A DNA stretch of 64,000 nucleotides, taken from positions 2,221,001-2,285,000 of the forward strand of contig NC_014472.1 of NCBI RefSeq assembly GCF_000153165.2, read 5' to 3'. The stretch is from Maribacter sp. HTCC2170. Its GTDB lineage: Bacteria > Bacteroidota > Bacteroidia > Flavobacteriales > Flavobacteriaceae. Under the pieces are notes generated by a model that ran no database searches, was not told the DNA's origin, and was given only the letters and a program-made list of their open reading frames with translations. Positions 8,508 to 47,482 of the stretch are shown here, in pieces. Both the position numbers and the translations under genes were made by a program. Position 1 is the first letter of the stretch. The number at the start of each line of letters is the position of its first letter.

Positions 8508-9854
8508 CTAATTGTTTCTGGCGTATTCAAGTTTGAGCTTTAATTCATTTACTTGCTCTTCCCATCTTTCCAATGAAACAGCATCATCATGAAGATTTCT
8601 TGCCTCAATGGTTGCTTCTCTTATTTGAGTAGACCATTTGTCTATTAAACGATTGGTGTTAATAGCTGTCATAGGACCATTGATTAGCTGACTCTTTTTT
8701 TGATTTAATTCTTCTGTAAAACTTGCCCATCCAGAGGTTAGCTTGTCACATGATGCAGAACGTTGCATTAGCGGCCCTGCATTAAATGGTTCGCAATTTG
8801 CCGTTATTTGACCTAAAGGGTCAACCACTTGAGTCCATGGGTTTTCAACTTCTATTATATTTTCAAAGGAATTGTCCAGATCCCAAGGTATTAAATGAAT
8901 TTTATTTTGTTCAACGTCCTCGTACCAGTAGTAGTTATGACTACTACACCATCCATCACTGCAGTACCAATGAAAAACCCCATCATCATTTTTAATTGTA
9001 CGGTCCACCACAATGTAAGATGTGATTTTATCAATATCCATCCAATTATTTATTAATTCGGGCATATCAGTTACATCTGCACTTGAAATTTCTTCGGCAA
9101 AAGACATCATAAGCGCAACTGATGGGTTTTCGTCTTCATTGGTTTTAAGGTGATCTTTATAATCTTGCTCCCCATATGTTTCTCCAAATTGGTCCACTGG
9201 CCAAATTTCTTTGTAAAGATTATTCTCTCCATCTTCAAAATTAAGACGTGTAAACCTTCCATCAATTTGCTCTGTCAAGGCAAAAAGTCCATTGAATTCT
9301 CCATTTATCAACAATCGAGCATGTACCGATCTAGGCGCAGGCACGCCCATTGATCTAAAAAGATAATAACCCATACGTTCTTTCATTTGGGTGTCGTCCG
9401 CACGTTGTGAGTGGAATTGCAATTTTTTAAGCCCATAGAACTTGTCATCGGTGCCCTTCCAGTTGAACTTTACTTTCATTGAAAGTTTTGTACATGTTTT
9501 GCTCCCTACTGGGCCATCTTCAATTCCACCTGAGACACAGTCAACAAATGCCGCCTAAGAGCCTTTGTATCGGATTCCTACTTTCTCAATAGTTTCTCCT
9601 TCAAAAGTTAAACTCCCTTCAACATACTGTTCAGCTCCTGGATCCGCGTTTATTTGCTGTAAGGATGGTTCGGGTAAGTTGAGTTCAAAGGTATGTAAGA
9701 CGTCGTCGTTAAAAATGTAATCTGACTTTAATTCTTTATAATTTGGTTTTTCAGGATTTTCAACATCTGGACCGTCAATATTAATATCATCAGATTTACA
9801 GGAAGCAAAAATTAGGACAAAAGCCATTATCCAATATTTCAAGTAATTTTTCAT
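8508..9854 (-). pseudogene. CotH-type kinase-fold surface lipoprotein, interrupted by one in-frame TAG
   Basis: Read as one frame, this encodes about 448 residues. Residues 1-99 (from the ATG at 9854) hold a lipoprotein signal (LIFASC, then KSDD, which resembles a flavobacterial surface-export signal) and end in GIRYKGS. A TAG at 9557-9555 follows, and the same frame then runs on for 25 codons into the ATG at 9479 and 322 more residues. There is no frameshift. The downstream part has CotH motifs: RSVHARLLINGEFNGLFALTEQ, and the metal-binding PWDLDNSFEN. CotH proteins are atypical protein kinases. The interruption falls between conserved blocks, so this is a recent nonsense mutation, a sequencing error, or a read-through site. 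As written, only a 99-residue lipoprotein fragment would be exported. Confidence 0.85.
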
Positions 9855-10196: not shown

Positions 10197-11204
10197 ATGA
10201 CCATTCAAAGAATCACTTTTCTTGTATCATTTTTCACTGTTTTTTTTAGTATTCAATCCTGTAAAACCACTAGCGCAGTTGCAGAACCTGTCAAAGCGAA
10301 AGCAAATGAAGTTTACACTGAAACCGTGCCTATAGCCAATGTATCATTTGACATGGTTTTAATCCCTGAAGGGGATTTTCTCATGGGAAGCCCTAAAGGT
10401 GAAGAATTTAGAAAAGACGATGAGGGACCACAAAAGAAAGCCTCATTAGATGCCTTTTGGATGGGAAAACATGAGGTTACATGGGAAATGTTTCAATTGT
10501 TCTTTAAACAAAATCAAGAATTATTTACTGAGTTAGAACCAGATAAGCTCTCTGCCATAGATGCAATTACCAGACCAAGCCCCCCATACGAGGATCCGTC
10601 TTATGGAATGGGAAAAGATGATTTTCCAGCTGTAAGTATGTCAACCTATTCTGCACTTGTTTTTTGTAAATGGTTGAGTGAGATTACAGGAAAGTTGTAC
10701 CGGCTGCCAACTGAAGCAGAATGGGAATATGCCGCTAGGGCTGGTTCAAATACAGCATACGAGTTTGGAAATTCAGAAGAAGATATAGATAAGTACGCGG
10801 TGTATTATAAAAACTCAAACGGTAAGTATGCCAGAGTTGGTTCAAAGCTTCCGAATAAGTGGGGACTTCATGACATGCATGGTAATGTTGCCGAGTGGAC
10901 AATGGATCAGTATAAAGCCGATGCTTACGCAAATACTGAAGAAAAAAATCCATGGGTAATACCAAGAGTATTTCACCCTAGGGTGATTCGTGGCGGTTCT
11001 TGGGATGATGATGCAAAGAGTTTAAGGTCTGCTGCAAGAATGGCATCAAGTGTAAAATTGCAGAAAAGAGATCCACAGATACCAAAAAGTTTTTGGTGGT
11101 TTACAGATTCCAATTTTGTTGGTATGAGATTGGTGAGTCCAAAAGTGCAGCCAAGCAAAGAAGAACAACAAAAATATTGGCAAATGGTGCTTGATGAGGG
11201 GTAG
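10197..11204 (+). CDS. SUMF1/FGE-fold lipoprotein without catalytic cysteines
   Basis: 335 residues. A lipoprotein signal ends at FSIQSC (Cys 23). The SUMF1 (formylglycine-generating-enzyme-like) domain spans about residues 50-325 and has the family landmarks MVLIPEGDFLMGSP, MGKHEVTWEMF, RLPTEAEWEYAARAG, DMHGNVAEWTMD, VIRGGSWDDD and GMRLVS. Where true FGEs carry the two copper-binding active-site cysteines, this protein reads SLRSAARMAS with no Cys. Formylglycine formation is therefore unlikely, and a structural or binding role, as for GldJ/GldK-type relatives, is more probable. It heads the run SUMF1-YceI-ApbE-cytochrome cluster, all on the same strand. No sulfatase gene is nearby. Confidence 0.85.
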   Translation: MTIQRITFLVSFFTVFFSIQSCKTTSAVAEPVKAKANEVYTETVPIANVSFDMVLIPEGDFLMGSPKGEEFRKDDEGPQKKASLDAFWMGKHEVTWEMFQLFFKQNQELFTELEPDKLSAIDAITRPSPPYEDPSYGMGKDDFPAVSMSTYSALVFCKWLSEITGKLYRLPTEAEWEYAARAGSNTAYEFGNSEEDIDKYAVYYKNSNGKYARVGSKLPNKWGLHDMHGNVAEWTMDQYKADAYANTEEKNPWVIPRVFHPRVIRGGSWDDDAKSLRSAARMASSVKLQKRDPQIPKSFWWFTDSNFVGMRLVSPKVQPSKEEQQKYWQMVLDEG

Positions 11205-11240
11205 TGATTTTGAAAAAAATGTATAATAAATAGTTTAAAA

Positions 11241-11783
11241 ATGAAAAATTTAATAATTGCATTATTTACGATAGGGTGTTTCTCAATTGCCTGGTCACAA
11301 GAAAAATATTCTTTATCAAGTGAGAGTTCGCTGACGGTTGACGGATCTTCAACTTTACATGATTGGACCGTAACTGCTAATACCATTGATGGGGCATTGA
11401 TTAATGAGGGCAATGTTCTCAAAGAGGTGTCCTTTAGTGTTGAAGTTGCGAGCATTATAAGTGAACGTGGTAAAACGATGGATAAGAAAACTCATAATGC
11501 ACTTAAAAAGGAAGAGCATCCTCAGGTTTTATTTTCGGCTGCCAACGTCGCTTTTTCAGGAGGTGATAACCAAAGTATTTCAGGTAAATTAAATATTGCG
11601 GGAGTTGAGAAAGATGTTGTGTTTTCAACTACCATTAAGAATACAGGGGATTTACAAATAACTGGAAACTACAAAATCACCCTGCAGGACTATAATATGG
11701 AGCCGCCAACGGCAATGTTCGGGTCAATTGTAGTTGGTGACGATGTAACCGTAAATTTTGACTTAATATTTGTGAAGAATTAA
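11241..11783 (+). CDS. YceI family periplasmic lipocalin-like protein
   Basis: 180 residues with a signal peptide ending in IAWSQ. The YceI domain fills the rest and begins with the characteristic LSSESSLTVDGSSTLHDWT. It later shows the KKEEHPQVLFSA motif and the NMEPPTAMFGSI ending. YceI proteins are small beta-barrels that bind isoprenoid-type lipids such as quinones. The gene lies 36 bases after the SUMF1-fold gene and 34 before apbE. A lipid or quinone carrier beside a flavin transferase and cytochromes fits an envelope electron-transfer role, but that is inference. Confidence 0.9.
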   Translation: MKNLIIALFTIGCFSIAWSQEKYSLSSESSLTVDGSSTLHDWTVTANTIDGALINEGNVLKEVSFSVEVASIISERGKTMDKKTHNALKKEEHPQVLFSAANVAFSGGDNQSISGKLNIAGVEKDVVFSTTIKNTGDLQITGNYKITLQDYNMEPPTAMFGSIVVGDDVTVNFDLIFVKN

Positions 11784-11817
11784 TAGCTCCCGAAGATATA
11801 GAATTGTTGTCCGGAAA

Positions 11818-12819
11818 ATGTTTCTGGTTAAATGGCTATTGGTGTTTTTCTCCTTTTTAGTATGTTTTTCCTCTTTGGCCCAGGAGCGTTTTGAATATTC
11901 TTATCAACAAATGGGCACTCAGATTAAGCTCATTTTTTATTTTGACCAAAAGTCTGAAGCAGATGAAATTGCCGACAAGGCTTTTAGAAGAATTGATGAA
12001 TTAAACCAAATCTTAAGCGATTATGAACCTAGCAGCGAACTAAATCGCTTAACTAGAAATACGAAGAAGGATTTTGCAGTTAGCAATGACCTTTATAGAA
12101 TTTTGAAATCTTCAGTCAAGATTTCAAAAATAACCAAAGGAGCTTTCGATATCAGTACCGGATCATTGATCCGGCTTTGGAGAGAAACCCATAAGACTAA
12201 AGCTCTTCCTTCAAAATCCAAATTGAATAAGGCAAAAAGAAAAATGGGGTTTGAACATATTTCTTTTAGAGACCCCAATATTGTCAATTTGAATAACAAA
12301 GGAATACAATTGGATTTGGGGGGCATTGGCAAAGGGTACACCGCTGATCAAATAATAAAACTTTTGAACTTAAATGGTGCCACTTCTGCTTTGGTTGATA
12401 TGGGAGGGGATATTTGTGTAAGTAATCCGCCACCAAATAGAGAAAATTGGGCGTTGGCTTTTTCCCATTATAATAAAGAGGGGGAAGAAATCATTAAAAA
12501 AATAAAACTTAATAATGCCGCCGTGGCTACTTCTGGCGATTTATATCAATTTATTGAAATAGAAGGTGAAAGATATTCCCATATAATCAATCCTATTACC
12601 GGCATGGCCTTGAGAAATAGTATTCAAGTAACTACGATAGCCAAAACGGCTACTGAAGCCGATGCGTTCGCATCGGCATTCAGTGTTCTTGGAATTGAAC
12701 GGACTAGGACATTGAAGCCAAAACTGAAAAATATACATGCTTTTATCATTGAAAGTAGATTAAAAAATCAAAAAAGTTGGTCGAGTCCTAAGTTCAAAAG
12801 CTATATAGACACGAAATAG
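11818..12819 (+). CDS. apbE: FAD:protein FMN transferase (ApbE)
   Basis: 333 residues. A signal peptide ends at SSLAQ. Family motifs are YQQMGTQIKLIF at the start of the domain, the flavin-binding LGGIGKGYTADQI, ALVDMGGDICV, SHIINPITGMA, and the metal-binding TEADAFASAFSVLG. ApbE moves FMN from FAD onto a Thr or Ser of target proteins outside the cytoplasm, which assembles flavoprotein electron carriers. I saw no obvious target (Nqr/Rnf subunit or FMN-binding domain) in this window, so its substrate is elsewhere or unrecognised. It sits just upstream of the PSD1 cytochrome gene. Confidence 0.92.
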   Translation: MFLVKWLLVFFSFLVCFSSLAQERFEYSYQQMGTQIKLIFYFDQKSEADEIADKAFRRIDELNQILSDYEPSSELNRLTRNTKKDFAVSNDLYRILKSSVKISKITKGAFDISTGSLIRLWRETHKTKALPSKSKLNKAKRKMGFEHISFRDPNIVNLNNKGIQLDLGGIGKGYTADQIIKLLNLNGATSALVDMGGDICVSNPPPNRENWALAFSHYNKEGEEIIKKIKLNNAAVATSGDLYQFIEIEGERYSHIINPITGMALRNSIQVTTIAKTATEADAFASAFSVLGIERTRTLKPKLKNIHAFIIESRLKNQKSWSSPKFKSYIDTK

Positions 12820-12903
12820 TCGAGTAGTTTTATTCGGGTTGAAATTTAAAGATTTATTAATTCACAGGATTCATTAACTTTAGACGAACTACAAAATCAA
12901 TTT

Positions 12904-15255
12904 ATGAACCCCATGAAACAAAGAATACTGTTATTCACAATTTTATTTGGGGTGGTAATGATTCTTTTGGCCTTAACCAAAGGGGTGTTCAAAACTCAAA
13001 AGGATGGTTATACGGATCTTGCCTTACCAGAAACAGTGGATTACAATTTTCATGTAAAACCGATACTTTCAGATAAATGTTATACATGTCATGGTCCCGA
13101 CGCCAATAAACGTAAAGCTGGGTTGCGGCTTGATGTTGAAAGTTCTGCTTTTTCTGAACTACCTGAGAACCCGGGTAACCATGCTTTTGTAAAAGGCAAA
13201 CCCAAAACAAGTCTTGCATATCAAAATATAATATCTGAGGACTCGGATGTTGTTATGCCTCCAGCTGATTCCAAGCTTAAGTTAAATTCATATGAGAAGC
13301 GATTGATAAAAAAATGGATAGAACAAGGGGCGAAATTTCAAAAACATTGGGCATTTTTAAAGCCCTCGAAAGCTGATTCTCCCAAAATAGAAGCTCTAAC
13401 ATGGCCACAAAACGAGATAGATTATTTTATTCTGGAGAAAATAGAAAAAAACAACCTAGTTCCATCGAAGCAGGCAAGAATTGAAACTTTAATTAGAAGA
13501 ATCAGTTTAGACTTGACAGGACTTCCCCCTAGAGCCGAAGAAGTAAAAAAACTTGTCAATAGTGAATCGGCCAATAAAATCGAACAAATTGTCGACTATT
13601 TTTTGTCATCTAAAGCATATGGTGAACGCATGACCCAAAACTGGTTGGATGTTGCCAGATATGCTGATTCACACGGTTATCAGGATGATAGTTATCGCAC
13701 AATGTGGCCATGGCGTGATTGGGTCATTCATGCCTTCAATGAAAACTTACCTTATGATGAGTTCTTGATCTGGCAATTGGCCGGTGATTTACTCCCCAAT
13801 GCCACAAAAGAACAAATATTGGCCACGGGTTTTAATAGAAACCATCCCATTACACAAGAAGGAGGTGTGATTCAAGAAGAATATAGGACTAATTATGTGC
13901 TTGATAGAACAAATACACTAGGGAAAGGAATTTTAGGTCTTACTCTGGAGTGTGCCCGTTGTCATGACCATAAGTATGATGCGATAACCCAAGAAGATTA
14001 TTACGGATTGTTTTCCTTTTTTAACCACGTCAATGAAAAGGGAATTCAGATGGATGCTGTACAAGCGGCTAACCAGAAATTTTTTGCCGATCCACCATAT
14101 ATGACATTGACCTACGAAGAAACAAGGGATGTACTGTCTTTTGTTAATATTGAAGAAGATGTGAAGATCAATGTGATGGTCATGAATGATTCAACTCCTA
14201 GAGATACTTTTATATTGAATCGCGGTAATTATGACATGCCAACAGATACTGTGAAACCCAATGCCCCTAAGAATATTTATCCTTTTAAAGATGAATTACC
14301 TAAAAACAGATTAGGCTTGGCAAAATGGGTAACAGATAAAAATAATCCACTGACTGCCAGAGTATTTGTCAATCGAATTTGGGCAATGGTTTTTGGTAAA
14401 GGTTTGGTAGAGACTGTCGAGGATTTCGGTGTTCAAGGAAGCCTACCCTCACATCCAGAACTTTTAGATTGGCTTGCCGCTGATTTTATGGAACACGATT
14501 GGGATATAAAATATCTATTGAAGAAAATAATGCTTTCTGCTACATACCAACAAAGTTCAGAGGTGAATTCGGTATTAAAGAATGCAGATCCAGAAAACAA
14601 GCTATTGGCAAGGGCCCAAAGATTTAGAATGAGCGGCGAAATGATTAGGGATTATATCTTGACCAGTAGTGGATTGTTGAATGAAGAAATAGGAGGACCA
14701 AGTGTTAAACCATATCAGCCGCCCGGTTTGTGGGAGGAAACCAATGCGGGTGGAAATAGAGGTGTCTTAACTCATTACATACGGGATGACGGTGATAAAT
14801 TATACCGCAGGTCATTATATACGTTGTGGAAAAGGACTTTGCCACCAGCTAGTATGTCAATTTTTGATGCGCCAAGCAGAGATTTTTGCGAAGTGCGAAG
14901 ACAAAAAACAAACACCCCATTACAAGCCTTGGCCTTACAAAACGATATTCAGGTCCTAGAGGCAGCCCGTGTTTTGTCGCAAAGGGCTATAGCATCAAAT
15001 GAAGATAAATTAGAATTTGTTAGCGCTGTTTTTAGACAAATAATGATTAGAGAGCCCGAAAAGGACGAACTGAGAATGCTAGATAAATATTATGAAGATG
15101 CCTTGGATAAATTTATAAAGGAACCTGAAAATGCCCAACAATTGGTAAGCATAGGGGAATATGAACAATCAGAAGTTGAACCGAGCAAAACTGCGGCTTT
15201 AATGTTAACGGCCCAGGTAATCTATAATTTGGACGAAACTATTACGAAAGAATAA
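12904..15255 (+). CDS. planctomycete-type cytochrome, PSCyt1-DUF1549-DUF1553 (cluster A)
   Basis: 783 residues. An N-terminal signal-anchor (about residues 8-25) is followed by a PSCyt1 heme domain with CYTCH at 59-63 and a MPPADSK distal-ligand region. DUF1549 (from about 160) carries a second heme motif, CARCH, near 350. DUF1553 (about 465-770) contains NPLTARVFVNRIWAMVFGKG. Exported and membrane-tethered. These proteins abound in Planctomycetes and some marine Bacteroidetes, and their reaction is not known. The heme motifs require cytochrome c maturation. First gene of a three-gene cluster, five bases before the DUF1501 gene. It is shorter than its paralogue at 47482-50223, lacking most of that protein's jelly-roll-like insert. 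Confidence 0.9.
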   Translation: MNPMKQRILLFTILFGVVMILLALTKGVFKTQKDGYTDLALPETVDYNFHVKPILSDKCYTCHGPDANKRKAGLRLDVESSAFSELPENPGNHAFVKGKPKTSLAYQNIISEDSDVVMPPADSKLKLNSYEKRLIKKWIEQGAKFQKHWAFLKPSKADSPKIEALTWPQNEIDYFILEKIEKNNLVPSKQARIETLIRRISLDLTGLPPRAEEVKKLVNSESANKIEQIVDYFLSSKAYGERMTQNWLDVARYADSHGYQDDSYRTMWPWRDWVIHAFNENLPYDEFLIWQLAGDLLPNATKEQILATGFNRNHPITQEGGVIQEEYRTNYVLDRTNTLGKGILGLTLECARCHDHKYDAITQEDYYGLFSFFNHVNEKGIQMDAVQAANQKFFADPPYMTLTYEETRDVLSFVNIEEDVKINVMVMNDSTPRDTFILNRGNYDMPTDTVKPNAPKNIYPFKDELPKNRLGLAKWVTDKNNPLTARVFVNRIWAMVFGKGLVETVEDFGVQGSLPSHPELLDWLAADFMEHDWDIKYLLKKIMLSATYQQSSEVNSVLKNADPENKLLARAQRFRMSGEMIRDYILTSSGLLNEEIGGPSVKPYQPPGLWEETNAGGNRGVLTHYIRDDGDKLYRRSLYTLWKRTLPPASMSIFDAPSRDFCEVRRQKTNTPLQALALQNDIQVLEAARVLSQRAIASNEDKLEFVSAVFRQIMIREPEKDELRMLDKYYEDALDKFIKEPENAQQLVSIGEYEQSEVEPSKTAALMLTAQVIYNLDETITKE

Positions 15256-15260
15256 GAAAT

Positions 15261-16715
15261 ATGGATAAAACAAATGATGAGAATCCATTAAAGGTCAATA
15301 GAAGACATTTCTTTTCACAGCTAAGTGTGGGAATAGGATCATTGGCATTGGGGTCGCTTTTAATTCCAGATCTTTTTAAAGGTGGGCCAAAGGAATTGGC
15401 AGATATGCCATTGGGAATTCCCCATTTTGCACCAAAAGCCAAGCGGGTCATTTACTTGTTTCAGGCAGGAGCACCTTCCCAATTGGAAACCTTCGATCAT
15501 AAACCAACCCTGCGTAAACGTATGGGTGAGGATTTGCCGGATTCTATTAGAAATGGACAAAGGCTAACTGGCATGACCTCCGGTCAGGACAAATTTCCAC
15601 TTATGCCGCCAACAGTAAAATTCAAACAACATGGGAACAGTGGAGCATGGGTGAGTGATTTTTTCCCTCATATCGCTAAAATAGCTGATGACATTTGTAT
15701 TGTTCGGAGTATGCATACAGAGGCGATTAATCATGACCCTGCCATTACTTTTTTTCAAACAGGAAGTCAAATATCGGGGCGACCAAGTATGGGGTCCTGG
15801 ATGAGTTATGGTCTAGGGAGCGAGAATAAGAACCTGCCTTCTTTTGTTGTTTTGACCTCAAGAGGAAAAGGCAATAGTCAGGGTTTGTATTCTAAGTTAT
15901 GGTCGAGTGGTTTTTTAGATTCAAAACATCAGGGAGTTTTGTTACGCTCAGGAAAAGATCCTGTATTATATCTTAACGACCCAGAGGGTATTTCCCGTTC
16001 AGATAAAAGACATTTATTGGATCATGTATCCTCTCTAAACAAAATGCATCATGCCGAAACCGGTGATGATGAGATAGAATCCCGTATTGCCCAATATGAA
16101 ATGGCATATCGTATGCAGATGTCTGTTCCAGATGTTATGGATATTTCAAAAGAGCCCGAATCTATCATTAAATTGTACGGGGAAGATTGTCAGGTGCCGG
16201 GTACATATGCGGCAAATGCATTGCAGGCTAGAAGACTTGCTGAAAATGGAGTACGGTTTATTCAGTTATATCACCAAGGTTGGGATCAGCACGGCAATCT
16301 TCATAATGAAATGGCTGGCCAAGCCAAAGATGTTGATCAGGCCTCCGCAGCATTGGTTCTAGATTTGAAACAACGTGGTATGTTAGAAGATACCTTGGTA
16401 ATTTGGGGGGGCGAATTTGGTAGGAGCAATTATTGTCAAGGGAAGTTTGATCCAACCAATTACGGGCGAGATCATCATCCCAGGGCCTTTAGTATCTGGA
16501 TGGCCGGAGGTGGTATAAAACCAGGACTGAATTATGGTAAAACTGATGAATTTGGTTATAATATTATTGAAAACCCTGTTCATATTAACGACTTTCATGC
16601 TACGCTAATGCATTCACTTGGGCTTGACCATGAGCAATTGACCTATAAATACCAAGGGCGCAGATTTAGATTGACAGATGTTGCCGGAAATGTTATTAAA
16701 GACCTTTTAGCTTAA
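15261..16715 (+). CDS. DUF1501 protein with Tat signal (cluster A)
   Basis: 484 residues. A twin-arginine signal, NRRHFFSQLSVGIGSLALGS, covers residues 13-32 and implies folding, perhaps cofactor loading, before export. The DUF1501 domain follows, with VIYLFQAGAPSQLETFD, GSWMSYGLGSENKNLPSFVV, VIWGGEFGRS, GRDHHPRAFSIWMAGGG and a closing HSLGLDHEQLTYKYQGRRFR. DUF1501 belongs, as I recall, to the alkaline phosphatase/sulfatase fold clan, but its substrate is unknown. No sulfatase CxPxR motif is seen. It always travels with PSD1 cytochromes, here directly between the two cytochrome genes (gaps of 5 and 3 bases), so they surely act together. Confidence 0.92.
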   Translation: MDKTNDENPLKVNRRHFFSQLSVGIGSLALGSLLIPDLFKGGPKELADMPLGIPHFAPKAKRVIYLFQAGAPSQLETFDHKPTLRKRMGEDLPDSIRNGQRLTGMTSGQDKFPLMPPTVKFKQHGNSGAWVSDFFPHIAKIADDICIVRSMHTEAINHDPAITFFQTGSQISGRPSMGSWMSYGLGSENKNLPSFVVLTSRGKGNSQGLYSKLWSSGFLDSKHQGVLLRSGKDPVLYLNDPEGISRSDKRHLLDHVSSLNKMHHAETGDDEIESRIAQYEMAYRMQMSVPDVMDISKEPESIIKLYGEDCQVPGTYAANALQARRLAENGVRFIQLYHQGWDQHGNLHNEMAGQAKDVDQASAALVLDLKQRGMLEDTLVIWGGEFGRSNYCQGKFDPTNYGRDHHPRAFSIWMAGGGIKPGLNYGKTDEFGYNIIENPVHINDFHATLMHSLGLDHEQLTYKYQGRRFRLTDVAGNVIKDLLA

Positions 16716-16718
16716 AAA

Positions 16719-18149
16719 ATGAATCAAAAGACTAATTGGCGATGGATTGATTATTTGATTTTTGGATTGACCATATTCTTGGTTTTCTGTATTATTTTCG
16801 ACTCTTTTCTTGAGTTGTCCGCTATTTTTGCTTGGTTGGGAAGATGGCATCCAGTAATATTGCATTTCCCAATCGTACTTCTGGCCTTGTCAATTTTTTT
16901 GGGACTTTCAAAAAAAAATGTGCCTCAATTATTGTTAACGGTCACGACGATTTCAGCATTAATAACGGCGATTTCTGGATTTTTCTTAGGCGCTGAGATT
17001 TCCGTTAAGGGTGATTTACTTTTAAGGCACCAATGGCTGGGTTCTGGAGTAGCTTTATTAACTGTCATTTGGTTTTGGATACTCCGTTATGAACTAGAAT
17101 ATAAGTCCATCTTAAAAATTATTCAGATTGTATTGATTGGTTTGATTCTATTAACGGGTCATTTTGGAGGAATGTTGACTCACGGGGAGGATTTTTTAAC
17201 ACTGCCATCATCTGAGGAGAGTGATAAAATACCTGAAAATCCACTCATATACGAGCATATTGTAGGTAGGATAATAAAAGAGAAATGTGTTTCATGTCAT
17301 AACCCAAATAAGAAAAAAGGGCAATTGGTGATGACTGGTTTGAGTGAAATTTTAAAAGGGGGAGAGATTGGAAATACAATTGTCCCCACTAAGCCAGAAG
17401 AAAGTGAAATGATAAAAAGGTTACATCTGCCTTTAGAAAATGATGAGCATATGCCTCCCGATGGAAAGAATCCATTAAGTGAAAATGAAATTCAGATTTT
17501 GGAGCGTTGGATAACCTTAGGGGCACTTGATACTTTACGTTTAGCCCATCTGTCAGGGGCAGAGCCAATGCGTGCTTTGATTAAGGAAATGATGGAGCCT
17601 GACCCTATGAATAAGTGGGAAAACCTTCCAAAAGTGGCAGATAGCACAATCTTGAATCTGTCGTCGGATTATATTAATATTACAAGGGTTGCTAGCAATT
17701 CAGAAGCTATTAAAATCAATGCTTTTCTTTCTCCGAACCATAGTCAGAAATCGATAACTGATTTGAAACGAATTGCCAACAATATTGTGGAATTGGATTT
17801 AAGTGGTATTCCAATCGGACCGCCTGAAGCTGAAATGATGGCTGCATGTACCAATTTGGAATGGTTAGAGTTAGATCGAACTTCTATTTCAGATGAAGAA
17901 TTAGATAAACTAAGAGGTTTGAAGAACCTGCGATTGTTAAAAATATACAAGACCAATGTTACTGATAAAAGTATTTCGGTTTTCAAAAGCCTTTCCAATC
18001 TTAAAAGCCTTTATCTTTGGAGGACAGGTATTGGGTCCAAAGCTTTGAATGAATTTTTAAAGGAACGACCAGATCTTGACGTTGATGTTGGAATTGAAAA
18101 GAAAGTGGAGTCATTCGTTGTGGTGGCAGATTCGATTCCCAAAACATGA
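16719..18149 (+). CDS. membrane DUF2231-cytochrome-LRR fusion (cluster A)
   Basis: 476 residues. It begins with several transmembrane helices of a DUF2231-like domain (residues about 10-155; LGRWHPVILHFPIVLLALSI). A PSCyt1-type heme domain follows, with CVSCH near residue 190 and the distal-ligand motif HMPPDGK. A soluble C-terminal half from about 320 holds four to five degenerate leucine-rich repeats (IVELDLSGI, LEWLELDRTSI, LRLLKIYKTNV, LKSLYLWRTGI). The inner-membrane part could pass electrons between the quinone pool or a partner and the exported cytochrome, with the LRR as a docking surface. That is inference. A paralogue lies at 43671-45065. Confidence 0.88.
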   Translation: MNQKTNWRWIDYLIFGLTIFLVFCIIFDSFLELSAIFAWLGRWHPVILHFPIVLLALSIFLGLSKKNVPQLLLTVTTISALITAISGFFLGAEISVKGDLLLRHQWLGSGVALLTVIWFWILRYELEYKSILKIIQIVLIGLILLTGHFGGMLTHGEDFLTLPSSEESDKIPENPLIYEHIVGRIIKEKCVSCHNPNKKKGQLVMTGLSEILKGGEIGNTIVPTKPEESEMIKRLHLPLENDEHMPPDGKNPLSENEIQILERWITLGALDTLRLAHLSGAEPMRALIKEMMEPDPMNKWENLPKVADSTILNLSSDYINITRVASNSEAIKINAFLSPNHSQKSITDLKRIANNIVELDLSGIPIGPPEAEMMAACTNLEWLELDRTSISDEELDKLRGLKNLRLLKIYKTNVTDKSISVFKSLSNLKSLYLWRTGIGSKALNEFLKERPDLDVDVGIEKKVESFVVVADSIPKT

Positions 18150-18196
18150 TAGGTATTAATTTGTATAATTATAGGAAATAAGAATAATCAACCATA

Positions 18197-18973
18197 ATGA
18201 AATTTAATCTTAAAGGAAAATCTGCAATCGTAACTGGTGGAGGTAGTGGCATTGGCAAAGCAATCTCCGAGACTCTTGCAGTACAAGGTGCAAACGTTCA
18301 CATATTGGAACTCAATGTTGACACAGCACAGATTTGTGCCGATGAAATTGTTGCAAAAGGTGGTAAAGCTATTGCGCATAAATGTAATATCGCCAAACAT
18401 GATGAGGTAGTACATGTGGTAAATTCAATTGCAGAGGATTTTCAATTGGATATACTCATCAATAACGCTGGAATTGCGCATATTGGAAATGTGGAAAACA
18501 CTTTGGAAGCTGACATGGATAAGCTGTATGAAGTGAATGTGAAAGGTGTTTACAATTGTATATTTGCCGCTATTCCATTTATGAAAACGAGAGGAGGAGT
18601 TATTCTCAATATGACCTCAATCGCTTCTTCAGTGGGAATAAAAGACAGGTTCGCCTATTCAATGTCAAAAGGGGCAGCCTTGACCATGATGTATTCTGTT
18701 GCTAAGGATTATTTAGAATATGGCATTCGATGTAATAGTATTTCTCCTGCCAGAATACATACCCCTTTCGTTGATGGATTTATAAAGAACACTTATCCAA
18801 ATCAAGTAGATGAAATGTTTAAAAAACTTGCTTCGACTCAACCTATTGGAAGAATGGGGACTCCTGAGGAAGTAGCCAACTTGGCCTTATATTTATGTTC
18901 CGACGAAGCTTCCTTTATTACTGGGACCGAATTCCCAATAGATGGGGGATTCATTAAATTAAACGGAAATTAA
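18197..18973 (+). CDS. SDR family NAD(P)-dependent oxidoreductase
   Basis: 258 residues, a classical short-chain dehydrogenase. It has the nucleotide-binding TGGGSGIG (residues 12-19), NNAG near 90, a catalytic Ser, then YSMSKGAA with the Tyr/Lys pair near 155-160. The end has the usual ITGTEFPIDGG. Cytoplasmic. It lies eight bases before a FAH-family hydrolase. That pairing is known from non-phosphorylative fucose/rhamnose-type sugar-acid catabolism (2-keto-3-deoxy-fuconate dehydrogenase followed by diketo-acid hydrolase), so a sugar-acid substrate is plausible. Substrate assignment is inference. Confidence 0.88.
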   Translation: MKFNLKGKSAIVTGGGSGIGKAISETLAVQGANVHILELNVDTAQICADEIVAKGGKAIAHKCNIAKHDEVVHVVNSIAEDFQLDILINNAGIAHIGNVENTLEADMDKLYEVNVKGVYNCIFAAIPFMKTRGGVILNMTSIASSVGIKDRFAYSMSKGAALTMMYSVAKDYLEYGIRCNSISPARIHTPFVDGFIKNTYPNQVDEMFKKLASTQPIGRMGTPEEVANLALYLCSDEASFITGTEFPIDGGFIKLNGN

Positions 18974-18981
18974 AAATTGAT

Positions 18982-19833
18982 ATGAAATTAATACGATTTG
19001 GCAAAATAGGCGAAGAAAGCCCAGGTATAGAATTAGACAACGGTATAAGATTGGATGTTTCTGCCTTTGGTCAAGATTATGATGAGAAATTTTTTGGTAA
19101 CGGGGGAATAGATAGGTTGAAAAAATGGCTTGATGAAAATCAAAGTTCATGCCCTGTTCTGCCAGATGGTGTGCGTTTGGGTGCTCCACTTTGTAGACCA
19201 TCCAAAATAATTTGTATAGGCCTTAACTATGCAAATCATGCTGCTGAAAGCGGAATGGAAATACCTAAAGAACCTGTTCTGTTTTTCAAGGCAACCTCGG
19301 CCATAGTTGGTCCTAATGATGATGTTGTTATCCCTAAAGGAAGTGAAAAAACTGACTGGGAAGTCGAGCTGGCCGTGGTTATTGGTAAAAAAGCTTCTTA
19401 CGTTTCAGAAGATGAGGCAATGAAGCATATTGCAGGTTATGTATTACATAATGATTATAGTGAAAGGGCTTTTCAGATTGAGCGTTCAGGGCAATGGGTA
19501 AAAGGAAAAAGTTGTGATACATTTGCTCCCTTAGGACCGTTTATAGCAACAAGCGATGAAATTGAGGATCCACATAATTTGAATTTATGGTTAAAGCTGA
19601 ATGACGAAATGTTGCAAAATAGTAATACTTCAGATTTTGTATTTAATATTCCTCAGTCTATTAGCTATATAAGTCAATTTATGACCTTATTACCGGGAGA
19701 TGTTATATCAACTGGAACTCCGTCAGGGGTTGGGCTTGGATTTGACCCTCCAAAATATCTAAAACCTGGTGATATAGTTGAATTGGGAATAGAGGGCTTA
19801 GGTACTTCTAGACAAGTAGCAAGGTCCTATTAA
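18982..19833 (+). CDS. fumarylacetoacetate hydrolase (FAH) family protein
   Basis: 283 residues. It has a short N-terminal domain, then the FAH catalytic fold from about residue 70 with IICIGLNYANHAAESG, the metal ligands in WEVELAVVIGKKA, the KGKSCDTFAPLGPFI loop and the STGTPSGVG motif. These cytoplasmic enzymes cleave or hydrolyse C-C bonds of diketo acids using Mg2+ or Mn2+. With the upstream SDR it may perform the last step of deoxy-sugar-acid breakdown (2,4-diketo-3-deoxy-L-fuconate hydrolase type). Acylpyruvase or ureidoglycolate lyase activity cannot be excluded. It is followed by a strong terminator. Confidence 0.88.
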   Translation: MKLIRFGKIGEESPGIELDNGIRLDVSAFGQDYDEKFFGNGGIDRLKKWLDENQSSCPVLPDGVRLGAPLCRPSKIICIGLNYANHAAESGMEIPKEPVLFFKATSAIVGPNDDVVIPKGSEKTDWEVELAVVIGKKASYVSEDEAMKHIAGYVLHNDYSERAFQIERSGQWVKGKSCDTFAPLGPFIATSDEIEDPHNLNLWLKLNDEMLQNSNTSDFVFNIPQSISYISQFMTLLPGDVISTGTPSGVGLGFDPPKYLKPGDIVELGIEGLGTSRQVARSY

Positions 19834-19843
19834 CGTAAAATAA

Positions 19844-19875
19844 AAAAATCCGTTTCGATTGAGAAACGGATTTTT
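19844..19875 (+). terminator. terminator after the FAH gene
   Basis: A 13-bp perfect stem (AAAAATCCGTTTC / GAAACGGATTTTT) with a 6-base loop lies 10 bases past the stop. A-tract and T-tract on opposite sides make it usable from both strands, including for the tRNAs on the minus strand. Confidence 0.85.
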
Positions 19876-42189: not shown

Positions 42190-43620
42190 TTAGAACAACA
42201 TTGGGATAATAAATTGAAACATTACAACCAGTATGGCAACTGATATTAAATTCAATATAATTCCTGCTCGAGCCATTTGATGCACTTTGATATACCCACT
42301 GGCAAATACAATAGCGTTGGGAGGTGTGGCCATTGGTAACATAAATGCACAACTGCTTGCCATTGTTACGGGAATCAATAAATATAATATAGGTATTTCT
42401 AGACCTATTGCTATTCCTGCCACAACAGGAGCCAAAACAGCAACCAAGGCAACATTGCTCATTAATTCTGTCATAAAAAGCATTAAGAAAATCAAAAGAA
42501 CAGCTGTAAACAAGATACTGATTTCACTTGAGGCAATAGCATTGGCCACAACATCGACGATACCACTCACATTCATGCCTTTGGCCAAAGCCAAACCACC
42601 GCCAAAAAGAATAAGAATGCCCCAAGCAAGTTTATGTGTGTCACCCCAATTGATCAAGAAATCACCTTTTTTTAAGTTGTAGGGTATTGCAAATAAGGAT
42701 ACAGCGGCTATCATACTTATTATTGTATCGGACAATCCTAGATCTGGAAAGATTTTATTGATCAGTGTTCTGAATATCCATAGAAAGACGGTCACACCAA
42801 AAATGATAAGGACCATTTTTTCTTTTCCACTCATTGTGCCTAATTTTTCTAGTTCGTCATTGATAACATTCTTTGAAGCTGCAAACTTAAGTTGTCCGCT
42901 CGGGAACATCCATTTGACCAAGACTAAATAACTGATCACTATCATTACTGCAGAAAAAGGAACACCAATGACCATCCATTTTAAAAAGGAAATTTCGATG
43001 TTGTATTGATTTTCCAATAAGCCTATCATTACCGAATTTGGCGGTGTGCCAATTACAGTTGCAATACCCCCAGCATTTGCGGAAAATGCAATTCCTAGCA
43101 TTACACTTAATGCGAAATTTTTGTCTTTTTTGGTGAAACCATCTTCGTCATCTATAAGTAAACCTATAACCGACATGGCGATGGGTAACATCACAACAGT
43201 ACTGGCTGTATTGCTTATCCACATACTTAAAGATGCTGTAGCAATCATGAATCCTAGCACTACCTTGTTGGGTGTGGTCCCTGTGATTTTGATAATGGTC
43301 AGTGCTATGCGTTTATGTAGATTGACTTTTTCTAACGCCAATGCCATTACAAAACCTCCAAAGAATAGAAAAATTATTGGACTACCATAATTGGCCCCAA
43401 CTTCGGCTATGGGGATTATATCCAATAAAGGAAAAAGGATCAATGGCAATAAAGCAGTTACTGAAATTGATACAGCTTCGGTAATCCACCAAATAATCAT
43501 CCAGAGGGCAATAGCGATTACGGCATCACCTTTTTCTGAAATCAAAATAGTTGGTAGATTGGTGAATAAGAAAAAAAGGATTGGACCTAAAAAAAGACCC
43601 AGTTTGCGACTGATGTTCAT
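42190..43620 (-). CDS. SLC13/DASS family anion transporter
   Basis: 476 residues with about eleven to twelve membrane helices. It has the two DASS substrate motifs, WISNTASTVVMLPIAMSV in the first half and SSCAFMLPMATPPNAIVFAS in the second. The family takes up di- or tricarboxylates or sulfate with Na+. The substrate cannot be read from the motifs. It lies downstream of cytochrome cluster B on the same strand, 50 bases after it, and may supply or clear an organic acid of that system. Confidence 0.92.
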   Translation of the reverse strand: MNISRKLGLFLGPILFFLFTNLPTILISEKGDAVIAIALWMIIWWITEAVSISVTALLPLILFPLLDIIPIAEVGANYGSPIIFLFFGGFVMALALEKVNLHKRIALTIIKITGTTPNKVVLGFMIATASLSMWISNTASTVVMLPIAMSVIGLLIDDEDGFTKKDKNFALSVMLGIAFSANAGGIATVIGTPPNSVMIGLLENQYNIEISFLKWMVIGVPFSAVMIVISYLVLVKWMFPSGQLKFAASKNVINDELEKLGTMSGKEKMVLIIFGVTVFLWIFRTLINKIFPDLGLSDTIISMIAAVSLFAIPYNLKKGDFLINWGDTHKLAWGILILFGGGLALAKGMNVSGIVDVVANAIASSEISILFTAVLLIFLMLFMTELMSNVALVAVLAPVVAGIAIGLEIPILYLLIPVTMASSCAFMLPMATPPNAIVFASGYIKVHQMARAGIILNLISVAILVVMFQFIIPMLF

Positions 43621-43670: not shown

Positions 43671-45065
43671 TTAATAGATAATGGAATCTGAGGCTATACC
43701 CGGTAATTCGTAATTGCCTAAGTCAATAATGACTTGGGGAAGATTAAGATTTTGTATGCTCTGAGGGTCGATATTTGTATTATGTAGAAATACTTGCTTT
43801 AGGTTTTCGATTGATTCCAATTTCTTCAGATTAGATGCATTGAACTTTGTGCTTGTAAGGTTTAATGATTTTAAATGAGCAAGTTTTGACAACTGTTCAA
43901 CCTTACTTCCATCTATTAAAGTGTTATCCAATTTTAAGATTGTGATATGGGGGAATTTGGATAAATCCTCAAAAACATTATCTGTTATTAAGGTCTTACC
44001 TATATCCAGTACTGCAATTTGTTCAGTAATGGATTTTAAAAGACTCAAATTATCATTGGAAAAATCAGGCTTATTTACGCATGATACTCGAAGAAAATTA
44101 GATTCCTTACTTATTTTTTCGACATGAAATCCAACTTTCTTTATGGCGTTGATGGAATCAATATTTGCTTCCAAAATTGCAATATTTGGATAATCATAAT
44201 TCTCTTCTTTTGGAAAATAGGCTAGGAACAACTCCTTATGCACTTCTAATTCTCCAATCGTTGCTTCAAAAGGATTTCCCATGTCAATCCATGTTTCTAT
44301 CAGTTTAACGTCCTCTTTAGTAAGTTGCTTTTTTTCTTTGGGAGGCATATGATCTTCATCATCATCAGGTAAAATCAATCGTGTGAAAAGATCGCTTTCG
44401 CTACTATTGTTGGCCAAGATAATTTCGCCATTTTCCCCACCATTCAAAATTCCTTCTTTAGTGCTTAAAATAAGTTCTCCTTTGGCCTTCTTGGGGTTAT
44501 GACAACTTACACATTTATTGTTTAGAATAGGGTCAATTATATCTTCATAAAAAATCTTGTCTTCCCAATTTTCATTATTCAGCGTTATTATTTTTTCTTC
44601 ATAGGTTTCAAAGCCTAGTGCTGATTTCATCGAATTAGGAAGAGGCTCTACCAAATAATCAGCGCCGTGGGTAATATTACCTCCCAAGTGTCCTGTACAT
44701 GAAATCAGGATTAAAATAATAACGACCAGTACCTTGGTAGGAATTCTTTTTATGATATCTATTTTGTTTTTCTCTGTTAATCGTAGATACATGAGGAAAG
44801 AAAACAATGCGGTGATGATGCCCAACCAAAGATGACTTTTGATGGTATCAAAGGCATAACCTTCACTGGTATACTGTAAATAACCTGTGATACATGCCAA
44901 CACAGCACTGATAGTTGCCCAAAAATATATTAATGTTATTGCTTGACTATATTGTCCTTTTTTGCGATTGTACCACTGTAACAGCAAGCCCAGGACAATG
45001 AAACCTATAGGTAAATGAACAAGTAATGGGTGCAATCTACCCAAGAGTTGTTTTATAATATCCAT
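43671..45065 (-). CDS. membrane DUF2231-cytochrome-LRR fusion (cluster B)
   Basis: 464 residues, same order as the protein at 16719-18149. DUF2231-like helices come first (LLGRLHPLLVHLPIGFIVLG, residues 8-150). The PSCyt1-type heme domain has CVSCH near 187 and HMPPKEK, and degenerate LRRs follow from about 340 (IAVLDIGKTLI, ITILKLDNTLI, LKSLNLTSTKF). Inner-membrane, with cytochrome and LRR in the periplasm. Last cytochrome gene of cluster B, 12 bases after the isomerase-like gene. Confidence 0.88.
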   Translation of the reverse strand: MDIIKQLLGRLHPLLVHLPIGFIVLGLLLQWYNRKKGQYSQAITLIYFWATISAVLACITGYLQYTSEGYAFDTIKSHLWLGIITALFSFLMYLRLTEKNKIDIIKRIPTKVLVVIILILISCTGHLGGNITHGADYLVEPLPNSMKSALGFETYEEKIITLNNENWEDKIFYEDIIDPILNNKCVSCHNPKKAKGELILSTKEGILNGGENGEIILANNSSESDLFTRLILPDDDEDHMPPKEKKQLTKEDVKLIETWIDMGNPFEATIGELEVHKELFLAYFPKEENYDYPNIAILEANIDSINAIKKVGFHVEKISKESNFLRVSCVNKPDFSNDNLSLLKSITEQIAVLDIGKTLITDNVFEDLSKFPHITILKLDNTLIDGSKVEQLSKLAHLKSLNLTSTKFNASNLKKLESIENLKQVFLHNTNIDPQSIQNLNLPQVIIDLGNYELPGIASDSIIY

Positions 45066-45077
45066 TACTTATTATTT

Positions 45078-45956
45078 TTATTCAAGGGACATTCTGTCTT
45101 TAATGGCGTTCATTATAAAAACATTGGCCCTCCATTGGTCAGCAACGGGAATACGCGTATAGGGTAATACGGGCAAATAGTTCGGAGGACCGAATTCAGT
45201 AGTTATTGTGACGACCTTATTTCCTTTCCTCCATTCTTTTTTAATCACGGTTTCCCAAATATCCATATGCCGACTTAGGGCTGATTTCCATTCTGGAGCT
45301 TCGGGGTCGTTCACCTGCGGTCCTTCAGCATGCCCAACTCTTGCGTGAATATGTTTCGATTTCTCAATAACCTCTTCCAGCAGTACATCCTGTCCATGTA
45401 AAAGCGATTCGTGAACAACCATCCAATGGCTAATATCCAGTGTAAGGTTTAAATCAGATATTGCTTTTAAATAGGTATTGGTATCAGGCAAATTGTAACT
45501 AAATCTACCTCTATGGGTTTCATGATAAATAGGAATCCCACTTTCTTTACTGATTTTATTGGCGGCATCTATAAAGGCTTTGTTTTGTTCGAAAGAAAAA
45601 AAGTCGCTACCAGTATGACAATTAATATATACAGGATTCCATTCAATCAAGGTGTTAAAATGTTTTTTATAGGCTTCAAGACCATCCTCAAAGGGTAATG
45701 ACCTATTTGTACCATTGAGAAAGGCCACCGCCAACCCATATTTTTTCAAAGCAGCTTTTAGTTGTATTTGATTTTCTTTTTCTGAGGGAAACCAAACTTC
45801 GATACCATCATAACCTGAAACTTTTGTTCGCTCGCAAAAGGCATCCCACGAAAGCTCATTTCCCCAGTTGGTCTGAAAAAACATAATCGATTTATCTACT
45901 TGGCTATAACTGGATAATGTTAATAAGAGAAAGAAGTTTAGTAAAAGTTGTTTCAT
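45078..45956 (-). CDS. exported sugar phosphate isomerase/epimerase-like TIM barrel
   Basis: 292 residues. A signal peptide (LLLNFFLLLTLSSYSQ) precedes a xylose-isomerase-like/AP-endonuclease-2 TIM barrel, with GYDGIEVWFP, YHETHRG, LTLDISHWMV, HIHARVGHAEG and TITTEFGPPNY supplying the expected Glu/Asp/His metal ligands. Most relatives are cytoplasmic, so export is notable. It lies between the DUF1501 gene and the membrane cytochrome gene, with gaps of 14 and 12 bases, which ties it to that system. The sugar substrate is unknown. Confidence 0.85.
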   Translation of the reverse strand: MKQLLLNFFLLLTLSSYSQVDKSIMFFQTNWGNELSWDAFCERTKVSGYDGIEVWFPSEKENQIQLKAALKKYGLAVAFLNGTNRSLPFEDGLEAYKKHFNTLIEWNPVYINCHTGSDFFSFEQNKAFIDAANKISKESGIPIYHETHRGRFSYNLPDTNTYLKAISDLNLTLDISHWMVVHESLLHGQDVLLEEVIEKSKHIHARVGHAEGPQVNDPEAPEWKSALSRHMDIWETVIKKEWRKGNKVVTITTEFGPPNYLPVLPYTRIPVADQWRANVFIMNAIKDRMSLE

Positions 45957-45970
45957 ATAGATAGATTTTT

Positions 45971-47482
45971 CTATGCTAGAATTTCTTTAATAACTTCCCC
46001 TTCGACATCGGTCAACCTAAAATGTCTTCCCTGAAATTCAAAGGTGAATTGTTCATGATCAAAACCGAGTAAATGCATTATTGTAGCATGCACATCATGC
46101 ACCGAAACCCGTCCTTCAGTTCCTGAAAAGCCTATGTCGTCTGTTTTACCATGTGAAGCGCCTTTTTTTATACCTCCGCCGGCTATCCACATAGTAAATG
46201 CATCACCATGATGGTCTCTCCCCTTAAATGCCATTTTTTTGTTGCCCCGATTCTCTTGCATAGGCGTTCTACCGAATTCACCGCCCCAAACTATAAGAGT
46301 TTCGTCTAGCAAGCCCCTTTGTTTAAGATCGAGTATCAGAGCAGTAATAGGGCGGTCAATTTCCCTACACTTGTTACGTAGCCCTATGTCGATAGATCCT
46401 TCACGAATATTTCCATGGGTGTCCCAGCCCCAGTCAAAAAGTTGCACAAAACGTACGCCATCTTCTACCAATTTACGGGCCAGAAGGCAGTTGTTCGCAA
46501 AAGATTCCTTTCCAGGTTCTACTCCGTACATCTGCTTTATGTCTTCCGGTTCATTGTTGATGTTCATTACTTCGGGTACCGCAATTTGCATGCGATATGC
46601 CATTTCATATTGATTGATGCGAGCCAGAATTTCGGGGTCAGCATATTTTAAATACTCTTCTTTATTGATTTTGTTGATGGCATCAATAGTACTTTTTTTA
46701 AGGTCTCTAGTTATCCCATCTGGGTCTTTGATGTAGAGCACAGGGTCACCCTTTGAGCGGCATTGAACTCCTTGATATACCGAAGGTAGAAACCCACTTC
46801 CCCATACACTTTTTCCTGCATCAGGTGAATTGCCGCCCGATGTTAGCACTACAAATCCAGGTAAGTTCTGATTTTCAGACCCCAACCCATAAGTGGCCCA
46901 AGATCCAATACTTGGCCGACCCAATCGTGCACTACCAGTATGCATAAATAGCTGTGCGGGACCATGATTGAATTGATCGGTGTGAACAGCCTTTAAAAAG
47001 GCAACATCATCAACTACTTTCTTGAAATGAGGTAAATAATTGGAAACCCAGTTGCCCGATTCACCTTCTTGTTTGAATTTAGCTTGAGGACCCATTAGTT
47101 TGGGAGTTCCTTTAATAAAAGCGAATTTTTTACCCTCTAAAAGCGATTGAGGACAGTCTTGCCCATCCAATTTTTGGAGTGCTGGTTTATAATCGAACAT
47201 TTCCAATTGGGAGGGTGCACCTGCCATATGTAGATAAATGATCGACTTAACTTTTGGGCTATAAGGAGGAGCCAATGTAGCAAGTGGATTCAAATCACGC
47301 TCTGCAAAAGTAATTTGGTTTTTTTTAGTGGGTTTCCCAAATGAGTCACATCCCATGAAAATGGAGCTCAGCGCAAGCCCCCCAATACCTTGAGTGCAAT
47401 TTTTCAGAAAATGCCTGCGTGTTTTTGACTCGGTTTCGCGGGCAAGTTTTTCTTGAATCAATCTATTTATAAGATCTTCCAT
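45971..47482 (-). CDS. DUF1501 protein with Tat lipoprotein signal (cluster B)
   Basis: 503 residues. A twin-arginine motif, TRRHFLKNCTQGIGGLALSS (residues 22-41), runs into SIFMGC, so it looks like a Tat-exported lipoprotein. The DUF1501 domain has IIYLHMAGAPSQLEMFD, GSWATYGLGSENQNLPGFVV, VWGGEFGRTPMQ, GRDHHGDAFTMWIAGGG and HLLGFDHEQFTFEFQGRHFR. The function is unknown but the association with PSD1 cytochromes is constant. It overlaps the PSD1 gene by one base. Paralogue of 15261-16715, which lacks the lipobox. Confidence 0.92.
   Translation of the reverse strand: MEDLINRLIQEKLARETESKTRRHFLKNCTQGIGGLALSSIFMGCDSFGKPTKKNQITFAERDLNPLATLAPPYSPKVKSIIYLHMAGAPSQLEMFDYKPALQKLDGQDCPQSLLEGKKFAFIKGTPKLMGPQAKFKQEGESGNWVSNYLPHFKKVVDDVAFLKAVHTDQFNHGPAQLFMHTGSARLGRPSIGSWATYGLGSENQNLPGFVVLTSGGNSPDAGKSVWGSGFLPSVYQGVQCRSKGDPVLYIKDPDGITRDLKKSTIDAINKINKEEYLKYADPEILARINQYEMAYRMQIAVPEVMNINNEPEDIKQMYGVEPGKESFANNCLLARKLVEDGVRFVQLFDWGWDTHGNIREGSIDIGLRNKCREIDRPITALILDLKQRGLLDETLIVWGGEFGRTPMQENRGNKKMAFKGRDHHGDAFTMWIAGGGIKKGASHGKTDDIGFSGTEGRVSVHDVHATIMHLLGFDHEQFTFEFQGRHFRLTDVEGEVIKEILA

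Follow-up and report, generated by a model that had tools for sequence, protein, structure and literature searches.

A planctomycete-type cytochrome module with a five-histidine membrane subunit in Maribacter: a candidate quinone-linked periplasmic sugar dehydrogenase

Planctomycete-type cytochromes can reach dozens of copies per genome; in Rhodopirellula baltica, according to PMC2754498, each of their domains is found 41 times. For PSCyt/PSD1 proteins, the corresponding passages of PMC5615132 describe conserved neighbour families, nearby sulfatases and a suggested role in carbohydrate metabolism, with no known function, and the two sources together, as far as they were accessible, suggest redox or sugar roles for planctomycete-type cytochromes with conserved gene neighbours (PMC5615132; PMC2754498). 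A reaction is not assigned to these cytochromes in the parts of the literature examined. A system that might work in a similar way is that of the LacABC periplasmic sugar 3-dehydrogenases, in which, according to the accessible text of PMC9007349, membrane-bound oxidation of sugars in the periplasm is encoded beside genes of sugar catabolism; PSD1 and DUF1501, however, belong to other families, and no search for LacABC was made. Here, we describe a gene cluster of the flavobacterium Maribacter sp. HTCC2170 (complete genome, 3.87 Mb), referred to as cluster A, located in a stretch of 64,000 nt (the window; NC_014472.1, positions 2,221,001-2,285,000). Its core is a triad of genes for a PSD1 subunit, a DUF1501 subunit and a DUF2231-type membrane subunit. 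We propose, with a probability of roughly 0.4, that the triad oxidises a periplasmic sugar, likely one linked to L-fucose, and that the quinone pool receives the electrons by way of haems c and a haem that is likely bound by histidines. Cluster A shares its Pfam domains and haem motifs with the PSCyt/PSD1 systems of Planctomycetota and Verrucomicrobiota, in the contigs of which PSD1-DUF1501 pairs are also seen, but differs from the planctomycete-type systems in that it adds a gene for a membrane DUF2231/PSCyt1/LRR protein and has paralogues that keep particular sugar genes. In the titles, abstracts and passages of the open-access literature searched there is nothing on this third subunit or its histidines; DUF2231 is named in one paper, on a cysteine-annotation database, and the accessible part of PMC8857213 does not mention cytochromes.

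The three genes occupy positions 12904-15255, 15261-16715 and 16719-18149 of the + strand, with intergenic gaps of 5 and 3 bases, and their products carry two, zero and one CxxCH motifs, respectively. The adjacency and the gaps had been pointed out in an earlier inspection of the DNA (the sequence-only reading) and were confirmed from the open reading frames (ORFs). Most domains named there were also recovered by Pfam, namely, PSCyt1, DUF1549 and DUF1553 in the first protein, DUF1501 in the second and PSCyt1 in the third (48.7 bits), whereas in the third protein DUF2231 (PF09990) is not reported at E 1e-3 and the leucine-rich repeat (LRR) match (23.9 bits) does not reach the cut-off of 27. The first protein, the PSD1 subunit, exceeds the cut-offs for all three of its domains, PSCyt1 (PF07635; 57.6 bits, cut-off 22), PSCyt2/DUF1549 (PF07583; 283.8 bits, cut-off 29.8) and PSD1/DUF1553 (PF07587; 343 bits, cut-off 28.5). 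Its translation probably starts at 12913 rather than 12904, because the identical database protein has 780 residues. The two haem motifs are located at C59 and C350. Among 55 diverse PSD1 sequences, C350, C353 and H354 are invariant, while C59, C62 and H63 are kept in at least 90%, and the same threshold is reached by a Met-Pro motif alongside CxxCH; the combination fits His/Met ligation of haem. The first cytochrome domain of the PSD1 model can be superposed on c-type cytochrome domains that are already known. Many charged and aromatic residues in the PSCyt2 part of the same 55 sequences are nearly invariant, and the second haem may therefore be the place of a catalytic site.

The order PSD1, DUF1501, DUF2231/PSCyt1/LRR is found in 90 of 93 loci from genomes of the family, representing four paralogue types: the DUF2231 gene follows the PSD1-DUF1501 pair in 23/23 A orthologues, 30/32 tier-2, 19/20 type-3 and 18/18 B loci. 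These loci were picked by similarity. A search of 299 family genomes with the A-type PSD1 produced a match in 88, the A orthologue group being made up of 23 genomes besides this one (64-74% identity, next best at most 55%); the tier-2 and type-3 loci are part of the same PSD1 search list, and the B loci were found through a TIM-barrel gene at 56% identity or more. With such a recurrence, in 90 of the 93 loci, the order of the three genes is not a matter of chance. The sequence-only reading had listed the DUF2231 gene but missed its place in this recurring core. Named close homologues come from flavobacteria, among them Zobellia, Maribacter and Ulvibacterium, the first two of which carry orthologues. 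The genome of strain HTCC2170 itself encodes seven DUF1501 and six PSCyt2 genes and has five copies of the module (A, B and three more loci), all in the same order and with zero to two genes between those for DUF1501 and DUF2231/PSCyt1/LRR. In a sixth locus (L017), DUF2231, PSCyt1, PSCyt2 and PSD1 are fused in a single ORF of 947 residues, and fused forms are found in L106, L144 and L145 as well. A wider, independent sample, consisting of the best 80 of 587 DUF1501 loci on named contigs, was sorted according to the record titles. Of its 44 Bacteroidota contigs, 27 have a separate DUF2231/PSCyt1 gene, including five of nine flavobacterial ones (in one of these on the opposite strand); of the 36 contigs from other phyla, none has it. 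Hence, the third gene characterises several paralogue types of the Bacteroidota, not all. In one genome, a fatty-acid-hydroxylase gene lies inside the A triad, between the DUF1501 and DUF2231 genes (L066:12624-13646).

The membrane subunit consists of a DUF2231-type domain (residues ~8-155), a PSCyt1 haem c domain and LRRs. The protein of cluster A aligns with its DUF2231 paralogues with the histidines in register, five related proteins of the same genome score DUF2231 at 27.4-51.3 bits (cut-off 26.4), and its predicted model matches LRR structures. The only histidines within the membrane domain are H44, H49, H104, H148 and H155. In 124 aligned cytochrome-fused proteins they are kept in 123, 123, 123, 123 and 122 sequences, respectively; the CxxCH motif of haem c is as strictly kept, and M245 is found in 123 of the 124. 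When the set is reduced to 85 representatives under 60% identity (mean pairwise identity 32%), 12 of 160 membrane-domain positions are at least 98% conserved, and all five histidines are among them (Fisher p 9.7e-7). As a control, 25 free-standing DUF2231 proteins were drawn from 119 genomes of the class. At the aligned columns these have histidine in 25, 24, 24, 7 and 12 of 25 sequences, the last count including 13 alignments that end earlier or have a gap at the H155 column, and all five are present in four. A strict text pattern, according to which both histidine motifs occur in 2 of the 25, overstated the difference and was replaced by the aligned-column count. Judged from these alignments, H44, H49 and H104 are general to DUF2231, and H148 marks the cytochrome-fused form. 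Retention of three histidines in the free-standing proteins may mean that the DUF2231 family as a whole binds a cofactor. Helices of the membrane domain are predicted at residues 8-26, 44-63, 70-91, 99-123 and 129-155, and because of these model helices and the haem c domain, which must be outside, all five histidines would be placed near the periplasmic face. The five conserved histidines are likely to form a predicted His-bound redox centre, in which haem b or another metal would be accommodated. In its conserved histidines, its small helical membrane domain and its coupling to electron transfer the subunit resembles the b561-type membrane cytochromes b; it differs from them in having five histidines, all predicted on one side, and no sequence or fold match to them was obtained.

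The DUF1501 subunit (PF07394, 529.7 bits) matches its Pfam model over the full length (model positions 1-390) and above the cut-off, and has an N-terminal RR motif, typical of Tat-type leaders, which is invariant in 11 aligned homologues. A profile comparison (hhalign) of its C-terminal part with sulfatases of the fetched loci covers 99 columns with 93.9% probability (E 1.6e-7), compared to 0.1-2.2% for four unrelated control families. In a PDB profile search all 11 of 11 matches, although weak (E 0.12-0.8), fall into what we take, for some of the named structures, to be the sulfatase/alkaline phosphatase superfamily, and a single-sequence search retrieves an arylsulfatase at E 0.0077, compared to E 0.86 for an unrelated match. 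In sulfatases, a D-H or D-N pair binds metal. The corresponding position of DUF1501 reads E-F, invariantly so in the 11 aligned sequences, and DUF1501, although kin to sulfatases, is therefore unlikely to be a standard one. It is set apart from the superfamily also by being encoded beside cytochromes. The same kinship, together with the sulfatase genes reported near PSCyt genes in the accessible part of PMC5615132, could mean that DUF1501 is an active hydrolase of sulfate or phosphate esters and that the haems only tether, sense or protect it. We consider this improbable given the E-F replacement and the close company of PSD1: over 93 loci (L087-L163, L072-L083 and four of the own genome), 88 of the 106 DUF1501 genes share a directon with PSD1 and 33 with a DUF2231-like gene (the label in L132 being weak). 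A DUF1800-DUF1501 pair is also present in the genome, at 1.24 Mb (L018:4010-7230), and the DUF1501 member of the pair ends in a weakly scoring type IX secretion tail that does not reach the Pfam cut-off. DUF1800 gives a Pfam match at E 8.3e-4 within an ORF of PSD1 length, while the profile comparison between PSD1 and DUF1800 is not significant (0.9-1.6% probability, controls at most 0.8%); DUF1800 is possibly a distant relative of PSD1 that lacks haem.

In the mechanism that we propose, PSD1 and DUF1501 would form one enzyme, with the second haem of PSD1 as the catalytic haem, and would oxidise a sugar in the periplasm. The c-type haems would pass the electrons to the DUF2231 subunit, the histidine site of which would reduce the quinone pool, assuming that the flow is directed from substrate to quinone. 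In cluster A the substrate would be a fucose-type sugar, the acid of which would be finished by the SDR and FAH enzymes encoded downstream. The suggestion of the sequence-only reading that an exported electron-transfer module is situated near genes of sugar or sugar-acid catabolism is supported. Sequence does not dictate which way the electrons flow, and the module might run in reverse or protectively, with the haems reducing peroxide or another acceptor near sugar-degrading enzymes. In line with such a role, the accessible part of PMC2754498 reports that an extracytoplasmic function sigma factor of Rhodopirellula, presumed to regulate a PSD1 gene, was up-regulated in all three stresses tested. 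On the other side, the genes that accompany A, B and some tier-2 loci have a catabolic appearance, and the neighbour families shown include neither a peroxidase nor a catalase (two of the lists give the 25 commonest families out of 117 and of 48), which leaves reverse or protective operation quite improbable.

The link of cluster A to L-fucose comes from the two genes behind the triad, those for an SDR (18197-18973, +), a probable 2-keto-3-deoxy-L-fuconate/rhamnonate 4-dehydrogenase, and for an FAH-family protein (18982-19833, +). The nearest solved structure of the latter is L-2,4-diketo-3-deoxyrhamnonate hydrolase (8gsr, E 1.5e-76). The NCBIfam equivalog is its best family, but at 339.8 bits it stays below the cut-off of 500, as does an FAH from within a fucose gene set (356.4). 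At E<1e-60 the FAH of cluster A is the sole copy in its genome. Among 11 FAH loci (L198-L208; hand-chosen from the FAH places in 78 genomes, two of them on short contig ends), six have a FucP-family gene and seven an L-fucose-dehydrogenase-like SDR; one representative each passes the FucP and L-fucose dehydrogenase cut-offs, and the lactonase representative is below its own (269.4 of 400). In strain HTCC2170, FucP (62%), lactonase (71%) and fucose-dehydrogenase-like (53%) genes are located at 1.02 Mb, away from cluster A. Because these genes are found there and the only such FAH in cluster A, the cluster probably encodes the last two steps of fucose-acid breakdown. This is in accord with the sequence-only reading, which had seen the SDR and FAH as finishing enzymes; their place can now be narrowed to what are probably the two final steps in the L-fucose/L-rhamnose acid pathway. 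Cluster A is related to the non-phosphorylating L-fucose/L-rhamnose pathway by FAH kinship and because, in several sister genomes, SDR-FAH are found beside FucP and L-fucose dehydrogenase, and differs in that its FAH is below the equivalog cut-off. To our knowledge, that pathway is not described as including a haem module. An L-fuconate dehydratase was sought in the genome and the candidates were rejected: among the five MR_MLE_C loci, no match to the enzyme of a sister genome exceeds 27% identity, and the best MR_MLE_C match is a galactonate dehydratase. A 550-residue ORF in the 1.02 Mb fucose locus resembles, by eye, a UxaA-type dehydratase. Lactate was also weighed as a substrate for oxidation by the triad but discarded, because it would arise in the cytoplasm.

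Upstream of the triad, on the same strand, are genes for a SUMF1-fold protein with a lipoprotein-like start, as judged by eye (10197-11204, +; 157.4 bits), a YceI-like exported protein (11241-11783, +) and an ApbE-family flavin mononucleotide transferase (11818-12819, +; 238.4 bits); this part of the sequence-only reading was borne out by the domain search. The formylglycine-generating enzyme carries a catalytic Cys pair in its C-terminal part. The SUMF1 protein, of 335 residues, has no such pair, and because Cys22 and Cys157 are its only cysteines it is unlikely to act as a sulfatase activator. SUMF1 and YceI precede the triad in 15 of the 23 orthologous A loci (with opposite-strand genes intervening in L054 and L061), and on the PSD1 tree, with two outgroup rows scored as lacking and many forks unresolved, the SUMF1-YceI label requires six changes, of which supported branches force at least four; a number as low was reached in 17 of 500 shuffles. 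On this tree, the SUMF1-YceI link is not confined to one young clade, and it survives in several outer flanks. Outside the own genome, SUMF1 at 64% identity or more is found at 19 places, 16 of which are near an A-type PSD1. In the A version of the module, SUMF1 and YceI probably act as accessory proteins of the envelope.

ApbE is an inconstant partner. The wiring to all three upstream genes put forward in the sequence-only reading is partly supported: it extends to SUMF1 and YceI, which are not limited to a single clade of PSD1, and not to ApbE, which is found in 3 of 23 orthologous loci (upstream in L052 and L053, downstream in L054). A chain of haem, flavin and quinone, with ApbE flavinylating a protein of the cluster, is suggested by the presence of ApbE in the same gene run here and in L052, L053, L054, L084 and L194. 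This part of the earlier proposal is very improbable: besides the low count, eight loci (L049, L050, L055, L057, L058, L059, L064 and L071) have a gene for an M20 peptidase between those for YceI and PSD1, two other ApbE genes are present elsewhere in the genome, and the known flavinylation-type motif is matched neither by the nine cluster proteins inspected nor by any frame of the window that stays open for at least 100 codons. The one DNA-level match in the window is antisense to the TIM-barrel gene of cluster B, described below. The ApbE of cluster A is probably incidental.

Directly 3' of the FAH gene there is a terminator-like inverted repeat with a 13-pair stem (19844-19875, no strand assigned), by far the longest stem among 8 terminator-like sites in the region, for which 7.4 are expected by chance; because of its position, the unit of cluster A probably spans 10197 to 19833. 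The Bacteroidetes-type promoter pattern has no match upstream of cluster A (9 matches in the window, 5.4 expected), and sigma-70-like sites are at chance level (33 against 34.9 expected). Upstream of the unit, a CotH-like gene (named by eye; 8508-9854, -) is split into two same-strand ORFs of 323 and 99 residues; it is possibly interrupted, or its start was misread.

Several observations weigh against our proposal. SDR is the next gene downstream of the triad in just 8 of 23 A loci and FAH is downstream in 3, and SUMF1-YceI is missing in eight, of which one, L069, has no upstream sequence. In L194, of the same genus, SUMF1, YceI, ApbE, SDR and FAH follow each other without a triad, with 15 bases from ApbE to SDR, and in L196 SUMF1, YceI and SDR are together while the triad is elsewhere. 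In the sample of the best 80 of 587 loci the DUF2231 gene is absent in 16 of 44 Bacteroidota contigs, including four of the nine named flavobacterial ones, and fused in one more, and therefore other versions work without it. As regards the redox centre, three of its five histidines are also found in DUF2231 proteins without a cytochrome, model confidence is low (predicted local distance difference test score ~70 around H44/H49 and 57 around H155; predicted template modelling score 0.43), and, as the fold search with the third protein was filled by LRR matches, its membrane domain gave no match to a solved haem-b protein.

The arrangements in L194 and L196 indicate that the triad is separable from its flanks. 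Accordingly, the locus might hold two units, a SUMF1-YceI-(ApbE)-SDR-FAH set and a triad that is a separate cassette, came and went between YceI/ApbE and SDR, and acts on an unrelated substrate, as would also be in keeping with the 15 of 23 A triads that have no SDR and the 20 that have no FAH behind them. This two-unit explanation is doubtful but to be taken seriously; against it stand the recurrence of SUMF1 near A-type PSD1 at 16 of 19 places, the spread of the SUMF1-YceI link over the PSD1 tree and several outer flanks, and the gaps and the terminator-like site after FAH, which fit one transcript. Irrespective of its interpretation, the triad-free stretch at L194:6209-10495 constitutes a natural site without the module.

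The paralogues of the module keep different sugar genes. Cluster B, the second copy in the window, is encoded on the - strand and comprises the PSD1 subunit (47482-50223), the DUF1501 subunit (45971-47482), a TIM-barrel (AP_endonuc_2) protein with a signal-peptide-like start, as judged by eye (45078-45956), the DUF2231/PSCyt1/LRR subunit (43671-45065) and a DASS-type sodium symporter (42190-43620). The order is kept in 18/18 loci of this type and the symporter in 14/18; the presence of the TIM-barrel gene in 18/18 follows from the choice of query. A GH92-like gene is found in 9 of 32 tier-2 loci and in no A (0/23) or type-3 (0/20) locus, and seven of these nine have at least four members of an N-glycan set consisting of GH18, GH20, GH29, GH130, GHL10, glycosylasparaginase and GH92. 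Module copies are inside N-glycan degradation loci in L072, L075, L077-L079, L082 and L083, whereas the assignment of L080 rests solely on a distant GH92 relative. In the tier-2 locus of the own genome, GH92 and a GH130-like gene are on the divergent strand. A, in turn, keeps SDR-FAH, B the TIM barrel and DASS, and some of type 2 the N-glycan genes. The substrate of the A module itself may vary between loci, because other A loci hold uronate-type KduI and DUF4861 genes (L049) or Gfo/Idh proteins with Tat-like starts, identified by eye (L058, L060 and L062). Another copy in the own genome, at 1.27 Mb (L016:2713-14566), is preceded on its strand by [2Fe-2S] and molybdopterin hydroxylase genes.

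Taken more broadly, the module could represent a new class of quinone-reducing periplasmic sugar dehydrogenases, built from dihaem and repurposed sulfatase-fold subunits, with DUF2231 as a new type of membrane haem carrier and each of the Bacteroidota copies serving one sugar source, such as fucose-type sugars, N-glycans or an anionic sugar imported by DASS; in this general form the proposal is rather unlikely. The flavobacterial version, with its membrane subunit, strict histidine signature and sugar-gene partners, leads to defined candidate substrates. If the proposal is true, a respiratory oxidation step would be added to glycan breakdown, and oxidation of sugars outside the inner membrane would be, if right, a testable job for the widespread and unexplained planctomycete-type cytochromes.

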